Shown: in pieces, positions 13,398 through 28,661 of the stretch
Numbering within the stretch: the first letter of the stretch is position 1
Layout of the letters: each line of letters opens with the position of its first letter
Source of the DNA: Taibaiella sp. KBW10
GTDB taxonomy: Bacteria > Bacteroidota > Bacteroidia > Chitinophagales > Chitinophagaceae
Length of the DNA: 47,299 nucleotides
Assembly (NCBI RefSeq): GCF_003852495.1
Contig: NZ_QAJI01000004.1
Span: 164,804 to 212,102, forward strand
Direction of reading: 5' to 3'
Translations under genes and position numbers: made by a program
The notes under the pieces: model-generated
Told to the model about the DNA's origin: nothing
The model's database searches: none
The model's input: only the letters and a program-made list of their open reading frames with translations

Positions 13398-15749
13398 ATG
13401 AGAAAACCGATCATATTTCTACTTGTTTTACTATTTCCTATATCCTTACTGGCACAAAAGAAAGTCTCTATCAGCGGCTATATTAAAGACGCCGGCAACG
13501 GAGAAACCTTAATCGGTGCAGCGGTTTTTGCCAATGAAACCAAAGAAGGGACGGCTGCCAATACTTATGGATTCTACTCCCTAAGCCTTAAACCCGGCGT
13601 GTATACCGTACGGTTTAGCAATATGGGTTTTAAAGAACAAACCCTAAACCTTAACTTATTAAGCGATACTGCGATTAATATTGATTTGCAGAACGCCAGC
13701 ACCAAAGACCTGGAAGAAGTGCTTGTAACGGCAGAACGTGCCGATAAAAATGTGAGTGGTACCCAAATGGGCACCATCGGCCTCAGCACTGAACAGATCA
13801 AAAAACTGCCGGTTGTTTTCGGGGAGTCAGATATATTGAAAGCCATACAACTCTTACCGGGCGTACAGTCGGCCGGAGAAGGGCAATCAGGGTTTTATGT
13901 AAGAGGTGGCGGTCCGGATCAGAACCTGGTTTTGCTGGATGAAGCAGTGGTCTATAATACCGGTCACTTATTCGGTTTCTTTTCCATCTTCAACTCCGAT
14001 GCCATTAAGAATGTAAACCTCATCAAGGGTGGGGCACCGGCCAATTATGGAGGCCGCCTGTCTTCTGTACTGGATGTGAATATGAAAGACGGAAACATGA
14101 AGAAGTTTGGCGGAGAAGGGGGCATTGGCCTGATTGCTTCCCGGCTTACTTTAGAAGGACCTATTGTTAAAAATAAAGGCTCCTTTATGGTTTCCGGCCG
14201 TCGTACCTATATCGATGTGATCTCTAAACCCTTTCTGAAAGGCAATGCCAAAGGAAGCGGGTATTATTTTTATGACGCTAATCTGAAAGCCAATTATATT
14301 TTAGGCAAAAAAGACCGTTTGTACCTGAGTGGTTATTTTGGAAAAGATGTGTTTAATTTTAATAGTGGAAGCGGTGATTTTAATGTAAAAGTACCTTGGG
14401 GAAATGCAACCTCAACCCTGCGCTGGAACCACCAGTTCAACGATAAATTGTTTATGAACGTTTCGGCGATCTACAACACCTATAATTTCCAGTTTACCGG
14501 AGGACAAAAAGACCTGTACATTACCCTTAAATCGGGCATTAGAGACTGGAACGGTAAAGTTGATTTTGATTATTACGCACCTTTCGGGCATCATTTTAAA
14601 TATGGTGTCAACTATACCTATCATAAATTTACGCCAAGCCAGTTGTCCGGAACATCGGCAGACTCTATGCTGATGCCGGAAAACCCCTTTATCAAATATG
14701 CACATGAGTCGGCGCTATACCTGACTGATGAATTTGATTTAGGCCCTTCGGTAAAGATCAATGCCGGTATCCGTTATTCCATGTTTAACCAGACCGGACC
14801 GTATACCAGCTATACGTTTGACGGCAATGGCAATAAAATGGACAGCACTGTATATGGCAGCGGTTCTTTAGTGAAGACATATGGCGGCTGGGAGCCGAGA
14901 CTGGGCGCACGTATTTCTTTAAGTGAGTCTTCTTCTATCAAGACCTCTATTTCGAGAAGTATGCAGTATGTACACCTGGTATCTAATAACGGAAGTACCT
15001 TACCTACTGATGTCTGGATGCCGAGTTCTCTGATTGTACAACCCCAAAAAGCATGGCAGTATTCCCTGGGCTATTTTCAGAACTTCCTGAACAATGCTTT
15101 GGAGACCTCTGTAGAAGTGTATTACAAAGACCTTAAAAACCAGATAGAGTACAGAGAAGGCTATACGCCTAATAATATCCGGGATCCGGAATCGGATTTA
15201 GTATTCGGAGAAGGTCAGGCATACGGCGCAGAATTCTTTATCAATAAAACAAAAGGCAAATTTACGGGTTGGATCGGCTACACCTTATCCTGGACCAACA
15301 GAAGGTTTGCACAGCTGAACAATGGCGATCCTTTTCCTGCTAAATATGACAGAAGACATGATCTGTCTATTGTAGCGAATTACGAGATCAATAAAAAATT
15401 GAACGTTTCAGCGGTCTTTGTGTACGCTACCGGCAATGCGATTACCTTACCTACCGGCTATTATTTTATCGATGGTAAACTGATACAAGACTACAGTAAG
15501 ATCAACCAATACCGTATTTTTCCGTATCACCGCTTAGATTTATCGCTCAATTATACCCCCAGAGCCAATTCTAAGAAAAGGGTGAAAGGAACCTGGGCGT
15601 TTTCAATCTATAATGTGTACAGTAGACAAAATCCTTATTTGCTTTATGTAAGTACCGAAGGTACCTTGCAGCAAGGTACCAGTGTGAAGGTAAAGCAAGT
15701 GTCTATTTTCCCGATTATTCCGAGTATTACTTATAACTTTAAATTTTAA
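13398..15749 (+). CDS. TonB-dependent receptor with N-terminal carboxypeptidase-regulatory-like domain
   Basis: Outer-membrane receptor of 783 residues. A signal peptide (MRKPIIFLLVLLFPISLLAQ) is followed by a CarboxypepD_reg-like beta domain at about residues 22-105 (ISGYIKDAGNGETLIGAAVF). The plug domain holds GVQSAGEGQSGFYVRGGGPD and LLDEAVVYNTGHLFGFFS at about 150-200. The rest is a beta barrel ending in a C-terminal aromatic strand (PSITYNFKF). The plug belongs to the common Bacteroidota family annotated only as a TonB-dependent receptor. It has no SusD partner, so it is not a classic polysaccharide locus. It has its own promoter and a strong terminator. Ligand unknown; control by the upstream LytTR regulator is possible. 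Confidence 0.92.
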   Translation: MRKPIIFLLVLLFPISLLAQKKVSISGYIKDAGNGETLIGAAVFANETKEGTAANTYGFYSLSLKPGVYTVRFSNMGFKEQTLNLNLLSDTAINIDLQNASTKDLEEVLVTAERADKNVSGTQMGTIGLSTEQIKKLPVVFGESDILKAIQLLPGVQSAGEGQSGFYVRGGGPDQNLVLLDEAVVYNTGHLFGFFSIFNSDAIKNVNLIKGGAPANYGGRLSSVLDVNMKDGNMKKFGGEGGIGLIASRLTLEGPIVKNKGSFMVSGRRTYIDVISKPFLKGNAKGSGYYFYDANLKANYILGKKDRLYLSGYFGKDVFNFNSGSGDFNVKVPWGNATSTLRWNHQFNDKLFMNVSAIYNTYNFQFTGGQKDLYITLKSGIRDWNGKVDFDYYAPFGHHFKYGVNYTYHKFTPSQLSGTSADSMLMPENPFIKYAHESALYLTDEFDLGPSVKINAGIRYSMFNQTGPYTSYTFDGNGNKMDSTVYGSGSLVKTYGGWEPRLGARISLSESSSIKTSISRSMQYVHLVSNNGSTLPTDVWMPSSLIVQPQKAWQYSLGYFQNFLNNALETSVEVYYKDLKNQIEYREGYTPNNIRDPESDLVFGEGQAYGAEFFINKTKGKFTGWIGYTLSWTNRRFAQLNNGDPFPAKYDRRHDLSIVANYEINKKLNVSAVFVYATGNAITLPTGYYFIDGKLIQDYSKINQYRIFPYHRLDLSLNYTPRANSKKRVKGTWAFSIYNVYSRQNPYLLYVSTEGTLQQGTSVKVKQVSIFPIIPSITYNFKF

Positions 15750-22482: not shown

Positions 22483-24246
22483 TTATTTTCCGGAAATCAC
22501 TACTTTCTGTACTTTACTAAATGGCAGGCCATTTCTACTAAGCTGTAAGAAATAAATACCTTCCGGCAGGGAAGCTACAGGAATCGTTATGCTTGAACCT
22601 GATACCTTTTGCACCAATTGCTTTTTACCCAGCATATCCGTTAAGCTTAGGGTATAGATACCATTACTATACTGATCCAGGTTGATGGTCAGCTGCTCTT
22701 TTGCAGGATTAGGATATACGTTTAAGGTAGCAAGTTGTCTATCCTTTATACTATTTGTGGTACAGTTCACTTTTAACCTTTGGGTCTGTGTGCTGGTGTT
22801 GCCTGCAGCATCCGTATATGTCCAGTTCACTACATAATCGCCGCCTTGTGTATAGGTCAGGGAATTTGTCGTTGCCGTAACTACGCCACTACAGTTATCA
22901 AGTGCTGTTGGCGGTACCAGGGTATAAGGACAATTGCCTTCCAATGCGATTAAAGTATCTACAGCTGCTACCGGAGCGATGGTATCTGCGATGGTCACCA
23001 ATTGTGTTTGATGTATCGTATCTGTACCCTGTACATAAGTCCATTGTATGGTGTAGCTACCTTGCGTATTATAGATTAACGGGCTAGTGGTGGTACCTGT
23101 TACCGGAAGGGTGTTATAACTGGCGGTTGGCGCAGTCAATGTAGTGTCGCAAGCTGCATAAACATGAACTAAAGGAAGTGTATCCCAGGTGGGTATTGTG
23201 GTAGTATGCAAGATCAGTTCATTGGCGATACGCCCTTCTACGGCACCGGAGTCGATACGCAGATAGGTCGTGCCATCTATTACTTCATAAGTAGAGGGTG
23301 CCGCAAAGTTTCCGGCACTGGCTAGTGCAAAGTCTCCGGACACTGGATCTACACCAAAAGATTTACCATAGAAAATGCTGAAAGAACTGCCGGCTAAAGT
23401 GGTTGTATATACCGATGTGGTGGGAATCACAGGGTTGGTAATGCTGTAAGCATGTACATTCGTCCCGGAAATAAAATAAAGCTTGTCTGCTCCGTATCGC
23501 AGCAATTTTGCATTACTGATACCGGTCAGGGTAATCGGTGTATTAAGCAAGTCATTATTGGAAGGCTCCATTTTTACAATCGAAGAGACATTGGAAACTT
23601 TTCCTAAGAGCCAGAAGCAGTTGCGAACCGGATCATATTGCATACCGGCAATGGTGCCGATACCCGGCAAAATTGTTGCGGTAACACTATTGGTCAGGGT
23701 GTCTACTTTCACGATTTTGCTGCCTATAGCAATATACATAAACCCGTTGGCAGGCACCATATAACTCGCATAAGACGATAAGGCCACCGCCGGATCAGTA
23801 ACGGGGTTCACGCTATTATTGCTCAGGTCAATCATAGAAACGGGCCCGGATGCTGCGCTCACATAAGCTTTCATATTACTGGCCTTGCCCATACACTGAA
23901 TGCCGGCGCCAAAGGTTGCATTAGTAAATGTTTTGATCGTGTCAAATCCCGGAAAGTTGGTAATGGCCATTTTAATCGGTGCCGTACCTTTGCCGCACAA
24001 TATGGCTCTGTTGCCCAGTATTTCAAAATCCTGCAGTACGTCTATACCGGCAGAACCATTGGCCGACTGGTATAAAGCCACCGATCCTACAGCCGGTGCC
24101 GTACCCGTTTTAGTTACTTTATAAACATCTCCGTTTGGCGTACCGAAATTGCCTTCGGCAACAACATATAAGCTGAAGTTTTTTGTTTGTGCCTGGGCAC
24201 TATACATACCGTATACAGCGGCTACCAGAAAAAATAATTTTTTCAT
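22483..24246 (-). CDS. BtuG-like beta-propeller surface protein with T9SS type A sorting domain
   Basis: A 587-residue exported protein. Residues 1-20 are a signal peptide (MKKLFFLVAAVYGMYSAQAQ). Residues about 25-350 show YVTN/DUF5074-like propeller repeats: SLYVVAEGNFGTPNGDVYKV, FMYIAIGSKIVKVDTLT, NCFWLLGKVSN, LYFISGTNVHAYSI. Two HYR-like modules follow at about 365-420 and 420-495 (TDTIAPVA, LDNCSGVVTAT, WTYTDAAGNTSTQ). The end, residues 505-587, is a Por sorting domain (LNVYPNPAKEQ, LPEGIYFLQL). A cobalamin riboswitch lies in its leader. BtuG of Bacteroides is a propeller lipoprotein that binds B12 at the surface, so a B12-capture role is the best inference. The inner ATG at 24246 begins the signal peptide; the longer frame to 24276 is rejected. 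No BtuB-type receptor is adjacent. Confidence 0.85.
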   Translation of the reverse strand: MKKLFFLVAAVYGMYSAQAQTKNFSLYVVAEGNFGTPNGDVYKVTKTGTAPAVGSVALYQSANGSAGIDVLQDFEILGNRAILCGKGTAPIKMAITNFPGFDTIKTFTNATFGAGIQCMGKASNMKAYVSAASGPVSMIDLSNNSVNPVTDPAVALSSYASYMVPANGFMYIAIGSKIVKVDTLTNSVTATILPGIGTIAGMQYDPVRNCFWLLGKVSNVSSIVKMEPSNNDLLNTPITLTGISNAKLLRYGADKLYFISGTNVHAYSITNPVIPTTSVYTTTLAGSSFSIFYGKSFGVDPVSGDFALASAGNFAAPSTYEVIDGTTYLRIDSGAVEGRIANELILHTTTIPTWDTLPLVHVYAACDTTLTAPTASYNTLPVTGTTTSPLIYNTQGSYTIQWTYVQGTDTIHQTQLVTIADTIAPVAAVDTLIALEGNCPYTLVPPTALDNCSGVVTATTNSLTYTQGGDYVVNWTYTDAAGNTSTQTQRLKVNCTTNSIKDRQLATLNVYPNPAKEQLTINLDQYSNGIYTLSLTDMLGKKQLVQKVSGSSITIPVASLPEGIYFLQLSRNGLPFSKVQKVVISGK

Positions 24247-24365
24247 TATATCACTTTGTTTTTTAATGACGACCAATAAATACGGAGCGATACAGTAATG
24301 TATGAGGAAGTAATACAGAACTATATTATCGTTTTTTCTCCGAAAACTTAATATAAATATGCTTA

Positions 24366-24522
24366 AAGGCAGGTCTCCTGGCTTGATCCGGATGCATCAC
24401 CTTCCCATCTTACAGACAGTGGTATACCGATGCATCTTTGAATTGGATCTTACAGTTGCGGGAACAGCCCCCGATTATCACGGGGTTCCCTTTTAATTCT
24501 TGTAGTAAAGAAACCTTTTTGC
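24366..24522 (-). promoter_or_regulatory. cobalamin (AdoCbl-class) riboswitch
   Basis: Read on the minus strand the conserved core is clear, in order: AAAGG (about 24512), AAAAGGGAA, GTG with ATC and a GGGG arm, GCTGTTCCCGCAACTGTAAG, CCACTG, GGGAAGG, and the closing B12 box AAGCCAGGAGACCTGCC (24368-24384). It sits about 120 nt upstream of the propeller gene's ATG, inside an AT-rich leader. In Bacteroidota such elements repress B12 uptake genes when cobalamin is plentiful. Outer ends are approximate. The expression platform is not obvious; there is no strong terminator between 24366 and 24246, so translational control is more likely. Confidence 0.95.
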
Positions 24523-24526
24523 GCCG

Positions 24527-24534
24527 CGAAGATA
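24527..24534 (-). promoter_or_regulatory. probable -7 box for the riboswitch transcript
   Basis: Minus-strand TATCTTCG (7 of 8 to TAnnTTTG) directly before the riboswitch 5' end, which would place the transcript start near 24522. Confidence 0.4.
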
Positions 24535-25958: not shown

Positions 25959-28661
25959 CTATCTTACTAAAGTTATGGTTCCTGTTTTCTTGAACGGTTT
26001 ACCTTCGGTGGTTACCGCATCTATGATGTATACATATGAACCCATTGCTTGTGGTTTACCATTAAAGCTTCCGTCCCATCCTTTATTAATATCGGTGGTT
26101 TCGAATACTTTCTCGCCCCATCTGTTGAAGATCTGGAAGGAGTTTAATTTGGCGATACCTCTTAAGCTTGCTTTGAAACTACTGTTGTTTGGCGTAAAGG
26201 CATTCGGCATATCAATCACCGTTTGTTTTACCAGCACATCTACAGAATCGCTAACGCTACAACCGTTTTCTGTTCTTGCGGTTACGAAATAACGCGTGTT
26301 TACTTCCGGATTCACTTTTGGATTGCTTGCTGTTGCACTGCTTAAGCCGGCATCAGGGAACCATTGGAAATATACACAGTTACCGCCAGGCTCCATGAAG
26401 TATACTTCTCCGGGATATACATTAATTGAATCCGGTAAGGTTATGACTGCATCAGGGTGTACTGTAATCGTTACTAATTGTGTATCCGTACAACCTTTAT
26501 CACTTGTTCCGATCAATTGATATTGTGTCGTTGTGGTTGGCGTTGCAATAGGATTCGCAATATTCGGATTACTTAAGTTCAGGCTTGGAGACCAATGATA
26601 ACTCTGTGCACCATCTGCTTTGAGCTGCACCGGACTTCGCGGACAAATACCCGTATCGGTCTGGTACATCTTGAGGAAGTCTCCGGGGTTCACAACGACC
26701 TGGACCGTATCGGAAATAAAGCAACCGAGCGGTGGTTTCACCGAAAGTACATAAGTTTCAGTCTGTTGTGCCGTATATAGATAATTGGCTTCATTACTGA
26801 TTGGTTGTATACCCGGGAATCGTCTCCATTCATATATATAATTGCTGGCATAAGGTAATACCATCGGCTCTAAACGTACGCTATCATATTGACACACAAT
26901 CCGGTCTAAGCCAAGACTCACGGAGTCTACAATAGGACGTTTGAATAAGTGTAAAATTCTCAAACTGTCACAACCGTTCATCGCAGGGAAAGTATCTACA
27001 TAAGTACCTGTTTCGGTATAACCGAACATATCTTGCCAAGGACAAATAGAGTCATATATTTCAACGAAAGGCATTTGTTTTACAAATACACAAACGGTGG
27101 TATCGTAGAAACAGCCAAAATCGTTTTTAACCGTAAACGTATAACATTTTGTACCGAAAGTATCTATTCTTGCAGTCATGTTACCGCCATTTCTCGCAAT
27201 GATCGTAGGATCATTGTTCCAGAAAGAATCTACCGCATAGTTTTTGAAAGAATCCAGATTAGATTGGAAATTCGGTGCGAACTCTAATCCCCAGAAGAAG
27301 ATGAACCCATTATCAGAAGCAAGGTTATCTGTGATCTGTAAGCTCCAGCTACCATTAAGCGGACAACCGATTAAGCTGCTGAAATTCTGGAATGGTTTAT
27401 AGGCGCCTTGTGGTAGAGAGCTACCCGGTGTTAATCCCGGAGAAGGTACCAGGAATCCGGCTACTCCATTTTGTTGTAACATCGTACCCCAAGCAGCTGA
27501 TTGTCTGAACTCATACGTCCATCCAATACCCGGAATATTATCGCCGGGGCCCGGATCGTTAGGACCACCAAGGAAGGTTCCACCACCATTAGGATATTCT
27601 TTTAAAACAGAAGATTGACCATTAGGGCAGATGATTTTCATTTCCAGGTCACCCAAATAGCTGTGTTCCATATTTACATACACGCGCGCCAGATCACTGG
27701 CCTGTGTGATCACATCGGCAGGGCCAAAGCAGTCTGCAGTGATTGAAGTCATATAAGAAACGCCGCTACCATCTGGTAAGAACGTTGTATCGGCAATTGG
27801 TGGTGCACAAATTTCTCTTACTTTCTTAAAGTCAAATATACCGAAAAAGTTTACCGTATCGTTTTGACATATCGTATCGCGCTCAGGTCCGGTACCGGTA
27901 AAATTCGCAACTTGGGAAACAAAAACTTTTAAGGCTTTTACTTTGGTACAAATGGCATGGGTATCGGTAACTCTTAAAACGACATTATAGATACCGGTAG
28001 CACCATAAGCATGATTTACCGTTTTGGTATTATATATGGTACCATCGCCCATTTCCCACTTATAGATTGTGTTTGTCGTATCGCTGTTCAGTACGTAGCT
28101 TGGAACTCCATTGAAGAAAATGCTTTGATTGATACAGGATTTCACTACACGGTTAGTCCCGCTCTGAACGTGGGCAGGCGATGTTGTGAACGCAATCGTG
28201 TCAATACTACAAGGAATAAGACAAGTAATTGTAGCTGCAAAACCAGTAGAGGTATTTACCGCGTCACTAACCATTTTAAAGGTTAAAGAACCCGTAGCAT
28301 TATTTGCGGTAATGGTTGGAGGTAATGTAGTACCGGTGTAGGCACCCAATAAAGGGGCTGCAGTAGAGTTACCATTATATACATACAGAAAATCTGCATT
28401 GTTCTCTAAAGAAAATGCAGAAAAGGTTGTACTGATTTGTGTACCGGGTGTTGCCGGAGTGAAAACGGTTGTCCCGTTTACATTGTTGGAATAGTTACCC
28501 GTAGCACCGCCATCGTCATAGAAATTGACAATACAATTGGATACATTGTTCGTTCCTGTGAGTGGCATCGTTATCGTCGTCTGTGCCATAGCAACATGCG
28601 ACAACATGCCTGCAAAAATTACCGATAAAACGGCAAATAAGTGTTTATAAATATTATTCAT
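25959..28661 (-). CDS. large secreted CUB/PKD/P-domain protein with T9SS type B (CHU_C) sorting domain
   Basis: A 900-residue exported protein with signal peptide (to about residue 27, ending AMAQ). A CUB-like domain at about 30-148 has NFYDDGGATGNYSNN and ADFLYVYNGNST. A PKD-type domain lies at about 155-250 (KWEMGDGT, VNHAYGATGIYNVVLRV). A P-domain-like segment at about 310-465 resembles proprotein-convertase regulatory domains (DLARVYVNMEHSYLGDLEMKI, CPLNGSWSLQITDN). Several Ig-like/PKD modules follow, and the CHU_C domain at about 815-900 has MPNAFTPNN, FNRWGEKVFET, GWDGSFNGKPQ and GSYVYIIDA. No catalytic domain is visible, so an adhesin or matrix role is likelier than enzymatic. Its small partner gene lies 16 nt upstream in the same unit. 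Confidence 0.9.
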   Translation of the reverse strand: MNNIYKHLFAVLSVIFAGMLSHVAMAQTTITMPLTGTNNVSNCIVNFYDDGGATGNYSNNVNGTTVFTPATPGTQISTTFSAFSLENNADFLYVYNGNSTAAPLLGAYTGTTLPPTITANNATGSLTFKMVSDAVNTSTGFAATITCLIPCSIDTIAFTTSPAHVQSGTNRVVKSCINQSIFFNGVPSYVLNSDTTNTIYKWEMGDGTIYNTKTVNHAYGATGIYNVVLRVTDTHAICTKVKALKVFVSQVANFTGTGPERDTICQNDTVNFFGIFDFKKVREICAPPIADTTFLPDGSGVSYMTSITADCFGPADVITQASDLARVYVNMEHSYLGDLEMKIICPNGQSSVLKEYPNGGGTFLGGPNDPGPGDNIPGIGWTYEFRQSAAWGTMLQQNGVAGFLVPSPGLTPGSSLPQGAYKPFQNFSSLIGCPLNGSWSLQITDNLASDNGFIFFWGLEFAPNFQSNLDSFKNYAVDSFWNNDPTIIARNGGNMTARIDTFGTKCYTFTVKNDFGCFYDTTVCVFVKQMPFVEIYDSICPWQDMFGYTETGTYVDTFPAMNGCDSLRILHLFKRPIVDSVSLGLDRIVCQYDSVRLEPMVLPYASNYIYEWRRFPGIQPISNEANYLYTAQQTETYVLSVKPPLGCFISDTVQVVVNPGDFLKMYQTDTGICPRSPVQLKADGAQSYHWSPSLNLSNPNIANPIATPTTTTQYQLIGTSDKGCTDTQLVTITVHPDAVITLPDSINVYPGEVYFMEPGGNCVYFQWFPDAGLSSATASNPKVNPEVNTRYFVTARTENGCSVSDSVDVLVKQTVIDMPNAFTPNNSSFKASLRGIAKLNSFQIFNRWGEKVFETTDINKGWDGSFNGKPQAMGSYVYIIDAVTTEGKPFKKTGTITLVR

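Follow-up and report, generated by a model that had tools for sequence, protein, structure and literature searches.

Gut Bacteroides are known to capture vitamin B12 with surface proteins; these are lipoproteins, and one of them, BtuG, acts as a lid on the receptor BtuB. A gene in a 47,299-nucleotide stretch of the Taibaiella sp. KBW10 genome, the whole of which we call the window, raises the question of whether such capture can be arranged differently. An earlier reading of the bare letters (the original prediction) had seen there a cobalamin riboswitch leading into an exported beta-propeller with HYR modules and a Por sorting domain, and had proposed that this protein does the job of BtuG while being carried by the type IX secretion system (T9SS), with no BtuB beside it. 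Is the protein a relative of BtuG at all, is its tie to the riboswitch and the sorting domain more than chance, and what would it do for a cell that encodes no receptor next to it?

Architecture of the locus

The aptamer (Table 1) scores well above the Rfam gathering score of 31.5 bits and is the sole Rfam match above cut-off within the whole window, which confirms the clear riboswitch of the original prediction. From its 3' end to the ATG of the 587-aa gene there are 104 bases; a mechanical list of open reading frames starts the gene at a TTG instead, at 24276. In the region of TATCTTCG, the columns TA..TT.GC are invariant across seven aligned leaders. The consensus of the Bacteroidetes -7 promoter element is TAnnTTTG, which we take TATCTTCG to resemble, judging by eye. 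Between aptamer and gene, GTTTTCGGAGAAAAAAC is the same in 7/7 leaders except for how its flanks align, and elements akin to it, of the form CTTTCGG...AAAG, were seen by eye in many other riboswitch leaders; it is a possible expression-platform hairpin. Folded in isolation, the leader gave no significant signal (z -0.81), and the GTTTTCGGAGAAAAAAC hairpin alone did not feature in its lowest-energy structure. The gene is apparently a single-gene unit. The aminotransferase downstream was considered as a second member and rejected: although it follows in the two nearest relatives (L040 and L041), it is absent from the loci of other genera.

Table 1. Features of the riboswitch-led locus in the window, with the partner gene found elsewhere in the genome
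Feature	Position	Strand	Basis
T9SS-exported BtuG-related protein gene (predicted), 587 aa	22483..24246	-	ATG start
BtuG-related propeller-type domain, residues about 22-365	23152..24183	-	profile homology to BtuG
AEGNFGTPNGD, residues 30-40	24127..24159	-	counterpart of BtuG2 loop Asn54-Thr64 by alignment
HYR-like region, residues about 366-495	22762..23151	-	PF23237 HYR_4C match at 444-489
T9SS type A C-terminal sorting domain, about residues 510-584	22498..22719	-	PF18962, TIGR04183
Cobalamin riboswitch aptamer (RF00174)	24351..24533	-	cmscan 106.8 bits, E 7e-26, model 1-189
TATCTTCG at aptamer 5' end	24527..24534	-	Bacteroidetes -7 promoter-like, by eye
GTTTTCGGAGAAAAAAC, conserved, in the aptamer-gene interval	24331..24347	-	candidate expression-platform hairpin
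Lone DUF4465 protein with T9SS type A tail and its own cobalamin riboswitch	L038:8922-9896, G000:C7:467921-468895	-	

The protein begins with a signal peptide that, read by eye from the sequence, has no lipobox cysteine at its end. The HYR modules of the original prediction hold in part: a HYR-like region follows the first domain, but its HYR_4C (PF23237) match of 25.4 bits lies just below the Pfam cut-off of 27. Among the relatives described below, HYR_4C matched at E<=0.01 in 7/7 members in one Pfam scan and in 7/9 other members in a second, five of those nine (L052, L055, L057, L060 and L062) passing the cut-off; none was found in L053 and L056 at E<=0.01, or in L061 at E<=0.001. Cysteines 366, 439, 452 and 495 are invariant in seven aligned family members. 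At the C-terminus, Por_Secre_tail (PF18962) scores 48.4 bits against a cut-off of 27 and TIGR04183 46.6 bits against 23, which bears out the Por sorting domain, and the genome encodes the T9SS sortase PorU (1167 bits, cut-off 420). With sorting domain and sortase both present, the window protein is predicted to be a T9SS type A substrate.

Relation to BtuG

A single-sequence search of the PDB with the whole window protein returned no BtuG, only sorting-domain chains and one chance match, and profiles were therefore needed. When a profile of the family was run against all PDB sequences, the first nine of its 19 matches were BtuG-type, the best with a modest E of 0.0034. They comprise 8BMX and 8BMY (BtuG2 with ligand, 8BMX being BtuG2-CNCbl), 3DSM (apo-BtuG2), 8OKV (BtuG3) and 8P97 (BtuB3G3), as named in the available part of PMC10404256, and four entries that carry generic names (8bn0, 8bai, 8baz, 8puj). 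For comparison by hhalign, 14 BtuG-type lipoproteins were combined in one profile, the window genome supplying one and riboswitch-led runs the other 13. Aligned with the family, this profile gave 99.7% over 300 columns, as a single comparison whose E-value is not a database value, against a maximum of 37% for 168 unrelated proteins of 300-520 aa compared one by one. Taken singly, the lipoproteins gave 98.2% for the window genome's own, at least 96% for 6/14 and less than 30% for 5/14.

A profile from 12 lipoproteins matched the window protein at E 7.6e-17 against 526 open frames, a background rich in B12 loci rather than a random proteome. All 33 of its matches were DUF5074/BtuG-type or similar B12-locus proteins, or members of the T9SS family, of which it picked up nine of 18 and missed nine; the reverse search, with the T9SS family profile, likewise matched only those two groups. 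DUF5074, the Pfam family of BtuG, scores 22.9 bits in the window protein, below the cut-off of 27.2, and the label BtuG-related is used here for that reason, without placing the protein in DUF5074 or calling it a BtuG. DUF5074 matches at E<=0.01 in 6/17 scanned members, and only the distant member L061 is known to pass the cut-off, with 66 bits; L061 carries this domain, a Por tail and a riboswitch in one gene, and by its sequence it bridges the T9SS family and the BtuG-type group. A maximum-likelihood tree of 35 rows separates the 17 T9SS members, L061 among them, from the rest by a branch with support 100/99; L142 was included without a group and sits on a very long branch, and L126 and L149, which had been aligned, were left out.

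At the profile level, the window domain is a diverged homologue of BtuG, and the relation asserted in the original prediction stands, BtuG coming first in the PDB profile search and hhalign standing clear of its controls. A beta-propeller of seven blades is predicted from homology to BtuG alone.

BtuG2 grips its ligand with two loops, of which Asn54-Thr64 is one, and Trp194, Trp272 and Tyr316 narrow its cyano pocket (PMC10404256, available part). Counted along the alignment, positions 32 and 194 of 8bmx_D are Cys and Trp, in agreement with the paper's BtuG2 numbering, and residues 54-64 of this chain (NEGNFQYSNAT) align gap-free with AEGNFGTPNGD, five being identical and Asn54 being Ala here. 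Ten of the 11 positions are invariant in seven members, EGN is present in all 17 aligned, and few stretches of the T9SS family are as well conserved as this region. Trp194 sits in a BtuG2 insertion and has no counterpart in the T9SS family profile; since it is absent also from 14/17 aligned BtuG-type lipoproteins, it is a weak criterion for BtuG.

Distribution and conserved pairing

The genome of the window (3.6 Mb in 12 contigs) is 99.84% complete, and G031 and G125 belong to the same genus. A full-length homologue was found in seven of 147 sampled genomes of the taxonomic family, the window's own included, the other six being 51-69% identical. A scan of one genome per named species (84,980 species) found 17 relatives, which apparently include the six from the family sample; it used the peptide patterns AEGN[FY]GTP and G[IF]DVLQDF, and is hence biased to close relatives and blind to RNA. 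The hosts are Edaphocola, Taibaiella, two Flavobacterium species, Brumimicrobium and other Bacteroidetes, Crocinitomicaceae and Flavobacteriales. Among 395 sampled genomes of the phylum the domain profile matched (E<=1e-8) in five, two of them from the window's genus; the other three matches, by eye, resemble BtuG-type lipoproteins and follow the ends of TonB-receptor genes. The lipoprotein profile matches all three as well, although Pfam gives nothing at E<=0.001 for one, L185. Across these samples the T9SS BtuG-related family seems to be uncommon and scattered.

RF00174 precedes the gene in all 18 members examined (6/6, 11/11 and the window), yet the window genome has just three such elements in total, so the pairing of riboswitch and gene is more than chance. 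Por_Secre_tail was found in 17/17 Pfam-scanned members (seven at E<=0.01, L061, and 9/9 above cut-off); a home-made sorting-tail profile, which is circular because it was seeded with the family's own tails, matched 17/18, the Pfam counts being independent of it. The recurrence of riboswitch, propeller-type domain and sorting domain in relatives, which the original prediction had proposed as a check, is thus observed. One member, L059 (Crocinitomicaceae), is a broken gene, counted for the riboswitch and kept out of the tree, the profile seeds and the Pfam scan: at L059:6001-7023 its propeller gene is split into two frames, with a riboswitch of 113.4 bits.

Receptors and other B12 genes

The absence of a BtuB neighbour, the last element of the original prediction, was upheld both in the window and in its relatives. 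A home-made TonB-receptor profile, with eight seeds (the genome's own BtuB-type receptor and seven riboswitch-linked ones), found no BtuB among the 33 open frames of at least 150 aa in the window, and it had no match in the 18 loci among 170 open frames of at least 150 aa within about 6 kb on each side, the flank of L061 being shortened by a contig end. A TonB receptor does lie in the window at 13398-15749, 7 kb away from the gene; the idea that it is BtuB was not supported, its sole solved-structure match at E<=0.001 being an 85-aa chain of a SusC homologue. Also in the window, at 25959-28661 on the reverse strand, is a 900-aa surface-type protein whose C-terminus resembles, by eye, a type B (CHU_C-like) T9SS signal.

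Elsewhere the genome encodes a BtuB-type receptor (L180:7917-9710) with four PDB matches (8p97_A, 8p98_A, 8bmx_C, 8blw_A; best E 3.1e-47), two of which are named BtuB, and a separate BtuG-type lipoprotein whose best PDB match is 8bmx_D (E 1.7e-41). The two are unlinked and distant from all three riboswitches. The idea that the window gene replaces BtuG or BtuB was rejected, as the genome keeps relatives of both; the window protein adds to BtuG rather than standing in for it. The second genomic RF00174 (94.2 bits) leads a lone gene whose 324-aa product has a DUF4465 domain (145.6 bits) and a sorting domain (Table 1), and the available part of PMC13398666 reports B12 binding by DUF4465 in eight distant members. 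The third scores just 32.1 bits, was not reported in the gathering scan, and precedes apparent class I ribonucleotide reductase genes, an assignment read from the sequence. The original prediction had thus caught the riboswitch-led T9SS relative of BtuG; its riboswitch-led, T9SS-tailed DUF4465 partner, elsewhere in the genome, lay outside its view.

The genome encodes the B12 enzymes MetH and methylmalonyl-CoA mutase and has neither CbiC, the sole synthesis marker looked for, nor a FecCD-type permease (the family of BtuC), and the organism therefore probably imports B12 and moves it across the inner membrane by an unusual route. A candidate for the inner-membrane transporter is a DUF6580 protein (G000:C10:240185-240709), because DUF6580 occurs in riboswitch-led runs of relatives: in L128 by Pfam, and in L143 and L164 by likeness. 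In these three loci (L143:449-1039 in reverse-complement coordinates, L128 and L164), DUF6580-type membrane proteins come directly after cobalamin riboswitches or TonB receptors, and in L143 the gene is followed by apparent cobalamin salvage genes; the three proteins are themselves candidate inner-membrane transporters of B12 or cobinamide.

Riboswitch-led runs in other genomes

In 39 genomes, the window's included, RF00174 was found at 64 places, two of them below cut-off. The 61 gene runs that were read come from 58 regions (59 places) and from the genome's three elements; no gene was seen in L171, the count leaves out the second place in L158, and L040 and L041 make up two further places. 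Home-made profiles, applied with a simple run rule, place a TonB receptor in 27/61 runs and a T9SS-tailed protein in 19/61. The five genomes of the window's genus together with G001 have 19 places. The 18 of these that were read divide equally between the T9SS propeller, a T9SS-tailed DUF4465 protein and ribonucleotide reductase, six leading to each, and none leads to a receptor. In L121, L141 and L163 a TonB receptor accompanies the T9SS-tailed DUF4465 protein in its run. B12 binders with a T9SS tail therefore occur beyond the window's clade, whose distinctive mark is the uncoupling from the receptor.

Two further kinds of protein were met in these runs. One, of about 330-355 aa, follows T9SS-tailed genes (L141:1507-2505, and similar in L156, L154 and L121); for L141:1507-2505, the only Pfam match is a weak sorting tail, and NCBIfam gives a tail and one sub-cut-off lipoprotein model. 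The other (L126:2324-3874 and L149:425-2272) is T9SS-tailed and riboswitch-led with a 'GGxFGxPG' start, adjoins a TonB receptor in L126, and has no match to the BtuG-type lipoprotein profile in either locus; it is possibly a second, more distant group.

Proposed function

We propose, with a probability of about 0.78, that the window protein is a corrinoid-capture protein induced by B12 starvation that feeds an unlinked BtuB. In Bacteroides, B12 causes such cobalamin riboswitches to repress their genes (PMC6143338, available part); when cobalamin is scarce, repression of the window gene would be lifted and the protein exported by Sec and then by the T9SS, for which tail and PorU are both seen. 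PorU would cut off the type A tail, and the protein would then be released or fixed to the cell surface, its BtuG-related domain binding corrinoids, partly via the AEGNFG loop if homology is a guide, and its HYR-like part serving as a stalk. The unlinked BtuB-type receptor would then take over the vitamin, perhaps helped by the separate BtuG-type lipoprotein, while the riboswitch-led T9SS DUF4465 protein probably works in parallel. In favour are the conserved pairing of riboswitch and sorting domain, the homology to BtuG, and the presence of MetH and the mutase without CbiC. Against it stand the DUF5074 score below cut-off, the nine of 18 members missed by the lipoprotein profile, the five of 14 single hhalign comparisons under 30% and the single-sequence PDB search without BtuG, together with the lack of Trp194, of a lipoprotein anchor and of a BtuB neighbour, and a genome that has its own BtuG-type lipoprotein. 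The original claim that the protein does the same job as BtuG is borne out in part only: the genome keeps its own BtuG-type lipoprotein and BtuB-type receptor, which makes the protein an addition, and the DUF5074 cut-off is missed.

The alternative that survives best concerns where the protein works. It might be a released scavenger, a 'corrinophore', that is cleaved, shed, binds B12 off the cell and returns it to BtuB with no part as a surface lid; hemophores do the like for heme. The want of a lipoprotein anchor (by eye), the 18 loci without a BtuB-type receptor in their flanks and the type A sorting domain all fit such a scavenger, and the lid role can be taken by the lipoprotein elsewhere in the genome. 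However, T9SS type A substrates are often retained at the cell surface and the HYR-like part suits a stalk, so that we hold full release to be a tentative and somewhat doubtful option, the sequence favouring neither release nor anchoring.

A second alternative concerns the ligand: the domain may prefer a corrinoid other than cobalamin, either cobinamide or one with a changed lower ligand, leaving cobalamin to the DUF4465 protein. Two unrelated riboswitch-led T9SS proteins in one genome, and a region around BtuG2 Trp194 that differs, speak for it, but BtuG2 binds many corrinoids via ring side chains (PMC10404256, available part), so that no change of specificity is needed, and we think this division of labour unlikely. 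Very unlikely is a propeller descended from BtuG that has lost B12 binding for adhesion or another surface role while retaining an old riboswitch, for which the distance from BtuG, the HYR-like adhesion-type modules and the separate BtuG-type lipoprotein could be cited, but which would leave the ligand-loop region among the family's most conserved stretches and a riboswitch in 18/18 members, unexpected in a protein with no tie to B12.

As a speculation well short of an even chance, the window gene would belong to a clade of Bacteroidota with B12 uptake 'inside out', in which receptor and lid have no riboswitch and the regulated output is two unrelated B12 binders, a BtuG-type propeller and a DUF4465 jelly-roll, both free-standing, T9SS-exported scavengers that are shed or long in reach, much like hemophores.

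Comparison with known systems

In a partial search of the literature we met no description of B12 or BtuG-type proteins with a T9SS or a sorting domain: the terms T9SS, type IX and sorting domain are absent from the main text of PMC12751083, PMC6143338, PMC8941943 and PMC13398666, and the available part of PMC9723704 places a riboswitch upstream of a TonB receptor only. The closest known system is Bacteroides BtuG (BtuG2: 8BMX, 3DSM; DUF5074), with which the window protein shares a domain homologous over its length, the N-terminal loop and cobalamin-riboswitch control. BtuG, however, is made as a lipoprotein from a gene beside that of BtuB, on which it forms a lid (PMC10404256, available part), whereas the window protein has neither a lipobox cysteine (by eye) nor a BtuB neighbour, and has a HYR-like module and a T9SS tail. 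The DUF4465 proteins BtuJ1, BtuJ2 and D5EK51 have a jelly-roll fold and are exported and riboswitch-controlled in B. theta (PMC13398666, available part); the window gene is likewise riboswitch-led and predicted to be exported, and the T9SS-tailed DUF4465 gene of its genome has the same lone-gene layout, but the window domain is of propeller type as judged by homology. The riboswitch-led operons of other Chitinophagales (L130, L137) that join a TonB receptor to a BtuG-type lipoprotein have the same riboswitch and a related domain, differing in that this domain is a lipoprotein adjoining the receptor.

All the parts of the system are already known; their combination and its regulatory logic appear to be new. 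A relative of BtuG has here been shifted to the T9SS and freed from BtuB, and this protein and the T9SS-tailed DUF4465 protein are between them the riboswitch-led uptake output of the genome. Genes labelled only by a sorting domain or a DUF thereby acquire testable roles. If the binding is real, vitamin scavenging is added to the roles of the T9SS, and Bacteroidota outside the gut genera have an unrecognised way of competing for B12.
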